Source of the DNA: Bugula neritina
Lineage: Eukaryota; Bryozoa; Gymnolaemata; Cheilostomatida; Bugulidae
Reading direction: 5' to 3'
Length of the DNA: 64,000 nt
Assembly: GCA_964035545.1 (NCBI GenBank)
Contig: OZ037765.1
Span: 13,634,698-13,698,697, forward strand
Shown here: piece by piece, positions 1,917-9,316 of the stretch
Position numbering within the stretch: the stretch's first letter is position 1
How the letters are laid out: each line of letters starts with the position of its first letter
Program-made: the position numbers and the translations under genes
Notes under the pieces: model-generated
The model's database searches: none
What the model saw: only the letters and a program-made list of their open reading frames with translations
Told to the model about the DNA's origin: nothing

Positions 1917-2327
1917 CTTGATTAATATATATTATGCTTAACCCACACACCCATTAACAAATGCAACTTACGAAGTGGAAAATACTCATATCCTGGTGAA
2001 TCTCTCCTTGTTTTTTTTGATAATGTTGATAAATTGCTGTTTTCAGAAAGCAAATGTTTCTTTACAGCTTTTTGTGTCTGTTGGTGTTGAGTATCTCCTG
2101 CAATGATGATAAGCATCATATAATAGTGTATATTAATATGTACATACTCTGATCTGTGCTGATGAGGGGACAAATCCCGAAACAGCTGCTGTCCACAGAG
2201 TTTACACACCTTTTAAATATGCTTTAGTAGAAACATAAGTTTCTACTATTGCGAAGGTGTGGGCCATGGTACTCTGTTCTGTGCTGATGAGGGGACAAAC
2301 CCCGAAACAGCTGCTGTCCACAGATTG

Positions 2328-2407
<80 letters not shown>

Positions 2408-3902
2408 CACACACAGGCGCGTAGGGACTGGCCATGTAACATAATTAAATGTCATATGCTGAAATAAAAAAAGATAACAAAGCACATGAAGATCAAAGAA
2501 AAAAATAACCTAAAAGAAGTTTATCATTACTAAGATCTGATCCAAAATATAATGTGACTGGAGGAAAGCAATTCAATTGACGAAGTGAAAATATTTGAAA
2601 ATCAAGAAGAAATCATCAGTTACAAAGTGGGTCTATTAGACCATTTTCCAATTTCCCTGATACATGCTGAAATGGCAGCTATGATATAAGTCCCAATAAT
2701 CATTTGTTGTGCTGACTGTCATCACTCTGTTTATAGTTGTCAACCCTTCAACTCTTTAGATAATAAAATGGTCAAGTTACACTGTATACAGTAGGCAGCA
2801 TGCAATTATGATATATAGATGGAAGGATAGATGAATGGATAGATAGATCGAAAGATAGAAAATTTGATAAATATTGTTTACGTTGCTATATGCATGTCCT
2901 TAAAGTAGTAGTGTACTACTTACCTAACTTTTTTGTGCTGCTTGTTTCAAGTTCAAACGCTTGCCTCTCTATGCTGAAAAGTCTGCCAATATCATCTGTT
3001 GACATCATTTCAGCTATGCTTTTGATTATTTCTGAATGACCATTGAATGTGATGAAATGTATTGCTGTTTGACCATTTTTATTCCGAAGAGTGAGCAAAT
3101 TGATTAAGTTAGCTGTCGGTAAAGACTTGATGATAAATTGAAGAGGTTTTTGATGAACCGCCTGTGCTGCATTGTGTACAGATGTATTGCCATCTTTATT
3201 TTGTAAACTGAGTAGTTTGTACAAGTCAGCTGCTGGTACAGAGTCTAAAATGCATTTTGCTGTCTCTGTATGACTTCTTTCCGCTGAATTGTGTGCAGCT
3301 GTGTTACCATCTCTATTCTGTATACTGAGTAATTTGTACAACTCAGCCGCTGGTACACAGTCCAGAATACATTTCACTGTTTCTGCATGGCCCCACTCTG
3401 CTGCTCTGTGCAGTGCTGTATTACCATACCTATTTTGTATACTGAGTAATTTGTACAATTTAGTCTCTGGCACATGTGCTAGAATGCATTTTACTGTTTC
3501 TGTATGGCCCCATTCTGCTGCCCGGTGTACAGTAGTATTTCCATATCTATTCTGTATACCGAGCAGTTTGTACAAATCAGCCTCTGGTAATTGTTCTACA
3601 ATACATTTCACTGTCTCTGTATGAACATTTTCTGCTGCATTATGTACAACAGTATTCCCATACTTATTCTGTATACTGAATAGTCTGTACAAATCAGCGG
3701 CTGGTACAGAGCTTAGAACACACTTTACTGTTTCGATATGACCTTTATCTGTCACGTTGTGTACAACTGTATCTCCATTGTCATCTTGTAGACTTAGCAC
3801 TTCTAATTTATTTTCATTAGAGAGAGAGGTCAGTGTCTCCTTGAACTTAACCAAGTTATCCTCAGCGGCATAGTCTTTCAGCTGATGGTAAACTTCTTCC
3901 AT
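1..3902 (-). CDS. Ankyrin-repeat protein with unrecognised C-terminal region (5 exons, C-terminus beyond window)
   Basis: Exons, in order on the minus strand: 3902-2924, 2097-1972, 1700-1614, 727-637, 497-1 (open at the window edge). Every junction is GT-AG and keeps phase; the exon 1 donor is G|GTAAGT. ATG at 3902 follows a short leader. About 593 residues are visible. Residues ~30-300 form about seven ankyrin-type units of 39 aa (core IQNRYGNTALHRAAEWGH, then ETVKCIL..VP..LYKLL), longer than the usual 33. Then comes a Lys/Ser-rich linker from exons 2-3. Exons 4-5 encode ~190 aa with no family I recognise (begins near GPVILNHVTENLSP, later WRKILVLGRNVLKI, PCRIVYAIAPAHLVLAD). No transmembrane segment is seen. 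Ankyrin arrays bind proteins; the specific role is unknown. Exon 3 is the least certain (short, but with a good pyrimidine-rich acceptor). Tandem hammerhead motifs lie antisense in intron 1. Confidence 0.75.
741..1613. other. Intron of the ankyrin gene, no feature seen
   Basis: AT-rich intronic sequence between exons 3 and 4 of the ankyrin gene. I see no coding segment, RNA or repeat in it; the short ORFs here have no recognisable composition. Confidence 0.6.
1867..1912. repeat. (TA)n microsatellite
   Basis: Uninterrupted TA dinucleotides over about 45 bp, inside intron 2 of the ankyrin gene. The tyrosine/isoleucine-rich ORF across it is an artefact of the repeat. Confidence 0.95.
2154..2198 (+). 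ncRNA. Type I hammerhead ribozyme motif, copy 1
   Basis: All hammerhead core parts are present in order. Stem I 5' strand CTGTG (2154-2158); CTGATGA (2159-2165); stem II GGGG/TCCC closing loop ACAAA (2166-2178); GAAA (2179-2182); short stem III ACAG/CTGT with a 3-nt loop (2182-2192); cleavage-site C at 2193; stem I 3' strand CACAG (2194-2198). Cleavage is predicted between 2193 and 2194. The very short stem III is typical of hammerheads in Penelope-like elements and metazoan retrozymes. Activity is inferred from the motif only. Confidence 0.85.
2279..2323 (+). ncRNA. Type I hammerhead ribozyme motif, copy 2
   Basis: Second copy exactly 125 bp after the first. CTGTG 2279-2283, CTGATGA 2284-2290, stem II GGGG/CCCC with the same ACAAA loop (2291-2303), GAAA 2304-2307, stem III ACAG/CTGT, cleavage-site C at 2318, CACAG 2319-2323. 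Compared with copy 1, the last stem II pair changes from G-U to G-C, so pairing is kept. It is followed directly by a (TA)n tract. Confidence 0.87.
2331..2406. repeat. (TA)n microsatellite
   Basis: About 75 bp of TA dinucleotides directly following the second hammerhead motif, within intron 1 of the ankyrin gene. Confidence 0.95.
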
Positions 3903-6010
<2,108 letters not shown>

Positions 6011-8769: not shown

Positions 8770-9316
8770 TAGTGCTAGGTATCAACAGCTATAGTGCTAG
8801 GTATCAACAGCTATAGTGTTAGGTATCAACAGCTATAGTGTTGGGTATCAACAGATATAGTGCTAGGTATCAACAGCTATAGTGCTAGGTATCAACAGCT
8901 ATAGTGCTAGGTATCAGCAGCTATAGTGTTAGGTATCAACAGCTATAGTACTAGGTATCAGCAGCTATAGTGCTAGGTATCAACAGCTATAGTACTAGGT
9001 ATCAGCAGCTATAGTGCTAGGTATCAGCAGCTATAGTGCTAGGTATTAACAGCTATAGTGCTAGGTATCAATAGCTATAGTGCTAGGTATCAACAGTTAT
9101 AGTGTTAGGTATCAACAGCTATAGTGCTAGGTATCAACAGCTATAGTGCTAGGTATCAACAGTTATAGTGTTAGGTATCAACAGCTATAGTACTAGGTAT
9201 CAACAGCTATAGTGCTAGGTATCAACAGCTATAGTGCTAGATATCAACAGCTATAGTGTTAGGTATCAACATCTATAGTGCTAGGTATAAGAAGCTATAG
9301 TATTAGGTATCATGTA
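8770..9316. repeat. 22-bp minisatellite, about 25 copies
   Basis: Head-to-tail units of the form TAGTGCTAGGTATCAACAGC plus TA. Copies differ at a few fixed positions (GTGCT/GTGTT/GTACT, CAAC/CAGC). It lies downstream of, or in an intron of, the reeler gene. Confidence 0.95.

Follow-up and report, generated by a model that had tools for sequence, protein, structure and literature searches.

The window analyzed here, a single stretch of 64 kb from Bugula neritina, carries two hammerhead ribozyme cores on its plus strand, adjacent to a (TA)n tract and within an intron of an ankyrin-repeat gene read from the minus strand (Table 1). The original prediction, made from the letters of the window, had claimed two type I cores at an exact 125-bp spacing, and both cores and spacing are present; its placement of the pair antisense in an ankyrin-gene intron was likewise borne out, with about 47 bp to the acceptor AG of the minus-strand exon. 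A pairing-aware descriptor (helix I of at least 5 bp, CTGANGA, helix II of at least 4 bp, GAAA, helix III of at least 3 bp and a cleavage base other than G) matched only two sites on the two strands of the window, both of them the hammerheads, and gave no match in 100 dinucleotide shuffles of the window. Type I was assigned from the descriptor, since a 3-nt loop caps helix III while helix I is left open. Both hammerheads are thus confirmed at the sequence level, and cleavage is predicted. The Rfam covariance models suggested as a check did not recognize them: no family reached its gathering score in the window, and the best permissive match was RAGATH-1-hammerhead (19 bits, gathering score 56.3, E 0.61), to the first copy only. 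The minimum-energy folds are likewise a point against them: GCUG of the core is paired with CAGC of helix III, and the three-helix catalytic fold is absent. The window also contains a 22-bp minisatellite at positions 8770-9312 (24.7 copies, 91% matches).

Table 1. Features of the hammerhead locus (positions in the window)
Feature	Position	Strand	Support or remark
Neighbouring host exon	~1972-2097	-	Splice signals, by eye
T-type retrozyme fragment, 5'-truncated, holds hammerhead 1	2145-2199	+	54/55 identical to T reference, 53/55 to C reference
Hammerhead 1	2154-2198	+	Descriptor match
Hammerhead 1, helix I, 5' strand	2154-2158	+	
Hammerhead 1, CTGATGA	2159-2165	+	
Hammerhead 1, stem II	2166-2178	+	
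Hammerhead 1, GAAA	2179-2182	+	
Hammerhead 1, helix III	2182-2192	+	
Hammerhead 1, predicted cut	2193/2194	+	
Hammerhead 1, helix I, 3' strand	2194-2198	+	
125-nt stretch between predicted cuts	2194-2318	+	Read as an accidental unit
C-type retrozyme fragment, holds hammerhead 2	2200-2333	+	134/134 identical to C reference; descriptor match
Perfect 10-bp hairpin, loop ATAA	2225-2248	+	By eye; also in predicted fold of the 125-nt unit
Hammerhead 2	2279-2323	+	Descriptor match
Hammerhead 2, CTGATGA	2284-2290	+	
Hammerhead 2, predicted cut	2318/2319	+	
3' tail CACAGATTGAGG after the cut	2319-2330	+	Fixed 3' end of C subfamily
(TA)37 tract, presumed target	2331-2405		Tandem Repeats Finder, 37.5 copies
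Ankyrin-repeat ORF across the intron, exon end near 2924	2919-3932	-	Pfam Ank_2, E 1e-28

The genome searched for further copies comprised 215.8 Mb in 295 contigs, including nine large contigs and a mitochondrial contig of 15,248 bp; the published B. neritina assembly tzBugNeri2.1 is given as 216.00 Mb in 320 scaffolds in the accessible part of its description (PMC11480708). A 35-nt core, allowed up to three mismatches, yielded 499 genomic matches on contigs C1-C9 and C107, with copies on all nine chromosomes, and the reversed pattern used as a control yielded none. Regarding the exact cores, 186 have UCCC in stem II (here the T subfamily) and 96 have CCCC (the C subfamily); no exact match to the core was found in the IMG/VR and GTDB contigs. 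These hundreds of copies, some of them in tandem arrays, fit the retrozyme identity proposed in the original prediction. The reference monomers measure 271 nt (T, from locus L092) and 272 nt (C, from L002), are 96% identical, have GC contents of 45.6% in one and 43.2% in the other, and lack coding capacity.

Sixty-five elements were counted by their coordinates, two pieces cut at locus edges being excluded. The set is non-random and consists of the best matches (L001-L030), 20 of the 76 loci with an exact C core and 30 of the 85 loci obtained from the first 100 of the 186 exact T cores, all of the latter on contigs C1-C2. Element lengths range from 53 to 1393 bp, with 30 elements of up to 265 bp, none of 266-271 bp, 15 of 272-286 bp, eight of 287-330 bp and 12 longer ones. 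A single hammerhead is present in 50/65 elements and two or more in 14/65. The spacing between neighbouring hammerheads of one element (n = 19) was 272 bp in 12 cases and 271 bp in three, with 125, 261, 280 and 497 bp found once each. Two 433-bp retrozyme elements adjoin in one TA tract at C8:2722306-2723305 (L003), likely by local duplication.

Monomers of one array are a median of one edit apart (19 pairs from six arrays, six pairs with zero edits), compared with three edits between monomers of different C elements (210 pairs, four with zero) and seven between those of different T elements (91 pairs, one with zero). The low divergence within arrays fits one template per array, a contrast that is weak for C, because 4/210 C pairs are themselves identical. 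Copies of the C subfamily are often 99-100% alike, and the family looks young. Among 57 elements (a set that lacks distinct copies whose sequence is contained within a longer array), intact diagnostic motifs are unmixed between the subfamilies except for stem II, with five single-state exceptions plus the window element, which has both states, and the tail, with one exception.

Both monomers are predicted to fold into rods (-109.9 and -105.5 kcal/mol, z -7.7 and -8.3). When the 12 differences between the two reference copies were mapped on the circular fold of C, three two-sided changes preserved pairing (C-G to U-A, G-U to U-A and loss of one G-C pair), two one-sided changes did so as well, and no pair was broken; the 10-bp hairpin is shorter by one G-C pair in the T reference. 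In 20,000 trials with nine substitutions placed at random, all pairs stayed intact in 0.02%, and about 0.1% had two or more two-sided changes. This pattern suggests that the predicted RNA fold has been under selection. RNAalifold applied to 52 truncated copies gave no informative fold. With regard to the loop-loop contact of canonical type I hammerheads, the family sequence has an internal loop past which helix I can continue, as judged by eye and from the predicted fold.

The insertions have fixed 3' ends and variable 5' ends. Regarding the 3' ends, in 62/65 elements the sequence passes into (TA)n 9-15 nt beyond the cleavage site (9 nt in 12 elements, 11 nt in 16, 12 nt in 30, 14 nt in two and 15 nt in two); of the remaining three, two have degraded ends and one is an inverted fragment of 61 bp. 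Within 25 bp, TA repeats are present downstream of 62/65 elements and upstream of 54/65, the other 11 having none upstream, and they occur in 3-5% of random 25-bp stretches from three backgrounds. Regarding the 5' ends, 18/65 fall at monomer positions 6-16, where 2.6 would be expected if they were uniform; in the wider interval of positions 6-22 there are 18 ends versus 4.1 expected (P 6e-8). These 18 belong to 15 one-turn elements and three arrays of whole turns plus a little. An excess of this kind would follow from synthesis that has a constant starting point on a circular template and that frequently ends once a full turn is complete. The start site is itself TA-like, so that joining to TA alone could favour positions 6-16; other TA-containing monomer positions (127 and 168) have four ends each.

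Much shorter insertions were sought as TA followed by up to 28 nt and the tail, a pattern that detects insertions at least as long as the tail motif, and at least 171 overlapping matches were obtained. From the matches listed, 24 independent insertions on contigs C1-C5 were taken, with four local duplicates excluded and junctions read by eye. Among these, 22/24 keep 3-19 nt from upstream of the cut and 2/24 end no more than about 1 nt downstream of it. The sequence is therefore continuous across the cut site in most cases, and most templates must have been so too, which points to circular or uncut RNA and not to a cut linear monomer. Some ultra-short scars among the matches listed lie 37-90 bp apart in locally duplicated TA tracts (C1:13288391/13288456, C4:8950208/8950292, C5:12847666/12847703 and C5:16844218/16844308).

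Against this background the window element is, by its sequence, a T-type fragment fused to a C-type fragment, the T call depending on one position. The original prediction had described stem II as changing from GGGG/TCCC to GGGG/CCCC with pairing kept; the letters are as described and the change is a one-sided G-U/G-C exchange, but it is a fixed T/C subfamily difference and not a change inside one repeat. The predicted perfect 10-bp hairpin is there. The proposal of a 125-nt monomer, by contrast, did not survive. As a genuine replicating unit it would account for two cores spaced exactly 125 bp apart and has a strong predicted fold (-47.1 kcal/mol, z -4.8). Its junction, however, occurs once in the genome (up to two mismatches), its two sides are T-type and C-type, and it accounts for 1/19 spacings, the other 18 lying between 261 and 497 bp and 15 of them being 271-272 bp; we consider such a unit exceedingly improbable. 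The lack of other copies with the same period, named beforehand as evidence against the prediction, applies to the 125-bp period and not to the family.

The fusion may have arisen by a second insertion into the tail of the first element or by template switching, and the 125-bp spacing of the two hammerheads would then be fortuitous. Another possible origin is that a mixed T/C array lost an internal stretch by deletion, since neighbours in arrays are usually 271-272 bp apart and the unit in the window is 147 bp shorter. In the six arrays tested, no two monomers of an array are more than four edits apart, so that mixed T/C arrays look uncommon, and we hold a deletion to be rather unlikely; second insertion, template switching and deletion would each yield the same fusion.

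Taken with the family, the hammerhead locus is best explained as a rearranged member of a B. neritina family of metazoan non-LTR retrozymes, spread by a proposed circular-RNA cycle (probability about 0.8). The best reading of that spread is that circular RNA is reverse transcribed into TA repeats by target priming, for which we infer ribozyme activity, the enzyme and the order of events. The hammerheads would cut transcripts of arrays, and a monomer would be ligated into a circle folding as a rod. A borrowed reverse transcriptase would nick a (TA)n tract and begin cDNA synthesis 9-15 nt beyond the cut and ligation point of the circle, where the RNA would read (A/G)UAUUA. The cDNA would cross the ligated junction, sometimes stopping within the ribozyme to leave an ultra-short insertion, often stopping after one whole turn and sometimes making several turns to leave a tandem array, and its end would then be joined to the other TA side.

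That the template was circular seems reasonably probable. The same family could instead be copied from uncut linear multimers transcribed from genomic arrays, with the whole-turn excess produced by joining at TA-like sequence. Continuity across the cut fits this equally well, 5' ends at other TA positions do exist, and for a Penelope-like element of anole the available part of one study reports that hammerhead mutants had no effect on in vitro insertion and that unprocessed RNA was the main substrate (PMC11167929). Yet exact ends bounded by TA behind GCTGTCCA number 251 in the genome and exact junctions between monomers only 80, so that most copies could not give multimers, and 18 ends lie at positions 6-16 against four each at 127 and 168; we regard linear multimers as a fairly unlikely template. 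Ordinary satellite DNA, expanded by unequal crossing-over or slippage of TA tracts with no RNA step, would explain the head-to-tail arrays at some loci and the local duplication of some short inserts. It is hardly compatible with copies on every one of the nine chromosomes, the predominance of single-hammerhead elements, 3' ends that are fixed while 5' ends vary, and subfamily differences that preserve pairs, and is given almost no weight.

The original prediction had also seen a Penelope-like pseudo-LTR pattern. Hammerheads do occur in Penelope-like elements, where reverse transcription begins internally, downstream of the ribozyme, and AT-rich DNA is the target of cutting, according to the portion of PMC11167929 at hand. 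In B. neritina the elements are built of 271-272-nt monomers, hold no reverse transcriptase or GIY-YIG frame and are too short for such an enzyme; the C monomer is merely 272 nt long and is repeated head to tail in arrays. A genome search for GIY-YIG (PF01541) gave one match, in an 87-aa frame away from the element, which we take to be SLX1-like; the search included no eukaryotic positive control, so that this single match does not establish absence. Since the only match lies in that frame, this domain search found no endonuclease-bearing Penelope element, and pseudo-LTR remnants of such an element are a very unlikely source of the family.

Candidates for the helper enzyme were also inspected. 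Among 20 reverse-transcriptase loci, taken from 150 scored and 2124 first-look candidates, 18 have (CAAA)n tails, one has a (CA)n tail and in one the tail was not seen; none holds the core, and a LINE helper was rejected for these loci. Because 20 of the 150 scored loci (2124 candidates) were inspected, the helper may be among the remaining ones. A helper sharing the tail was rejected as well: 60/311 exact tails are not preceded by an exact GCTGTCCA, and the eight of these 60 that were inspected are six ultra-short insertions and two ordinary copies with decayed cores. One very uniform LINE family (L036-L055) combines (CAAA)n tails with frames as long as 961 aa and was probably active recently. 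We tentatively suggest, as a possibility of less than even weight, that the mover is a reverse transcriptase not of the endonuclease-bearing Penelope kind that primes directly from TA microsatellites at (A/G)UAUUA, 9-15 nt beyond the ligated junction, and that the insertions record whole turns of circular RNA.

The mitochondrial COX1 reads through TGA, and ATA as methionine and AGR as serine fit conserved positions; a tunicate host, considered at first from the nine chromosomes, was dropped in view of this code. A near full-length COX1 also lies on a chromosome scaffold (C6:11174072-11175412) and has nine TGA codons like the mitochondrial contig; it reflects either recent insertion of mitochondrial DNA or a join made in assembly. 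Further COX1 sequences occur on small contigs, without TGA and bacterial-looking on C17, and split, with TGA codons, on C65 and C196; these look like cobionts.

As far as the available text of PMC7229834 goes, the family shares with metazoan non-LTR retrozymes a type I hammerhead with a short helix III, no apparent LTR, tandem repeats of about 170-400 nt, a GC content below 50%, many copies and self-paired RNA. Circular RNA of metazoan retrozymes has been demonstrated in coral, mussel and axolotl (PMC7229834; Cervera and de la Pena 2020, in the portions accessible). The B. neritina family differs in its bryozoan host and its TA-repeat flanks, and in a 3' end 9-15 nt past the cut with a whole-turn excess of 5' ends; the accessible part of PMC7229834 contains no such end analysis. 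The same part states that Penelope-like elements coexist in all retrozyme-bearing metazoans analyzed, whereas the GIY-YIG search in B. neritina found no coexisting one. With the anole Penelope-like element Poseidon the family has in common a hammerhead, tandem copies, AT-rich targets and an internal start of reverse transcription downstream of the hammerhead, with two adjacent starts in Poseidon (PMC11167929, available part). Unlike the B. neritina family, Penelope-like elements encode a reverse transcriptase and a GIY-YIG endonuclease, and in Poseidon initiation at 111-118 nt and a hammerhead cut 26 nt into the same frame put the start about 85-92 nt past the cut, versus 9-15 nt here (PMC11167929, same part). 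Plant LTR retrozymes are likewise non-autonomous and hammerhead-processed with a circular RNA intermediate, a proposed one in B. neritina, but have type III hammerheads, LTRs, a primer-binding site and a length of 600-800 nt (PMC4918200, PMC7229834, accessible portions); a plant-type LTR retrozyme is ruled out by the type I hammerhead.

Metazoan retrozymes and internal initiation downstream of a Penelope hammerhead are thus already known from the available parts of PMC7229834 and PMC11167929. A literature search that covered few subscription papers found nothing on a retrozyme family of B. neritina. How animal retrozymes re-enter the genome, in terms of RNA form, enzyme and site, is given as a model and not as a result in those same parts. 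The family described here is compact and young-looking and inserts into a simple repeat, so that a single public assembly offers hundreds of insertions from which it can be seen where synthesis began, where it ended and how many turns it made, all of which could then be put to the test by RNA work and in a defined reaction in vitro. If TA-primed synthesis by an enzyme outside the endonuclease-bearing Penelope kind is the true reading, the insertions of B. neritina would be a readable fossil record of circular-RNA-templated retrotransposition.
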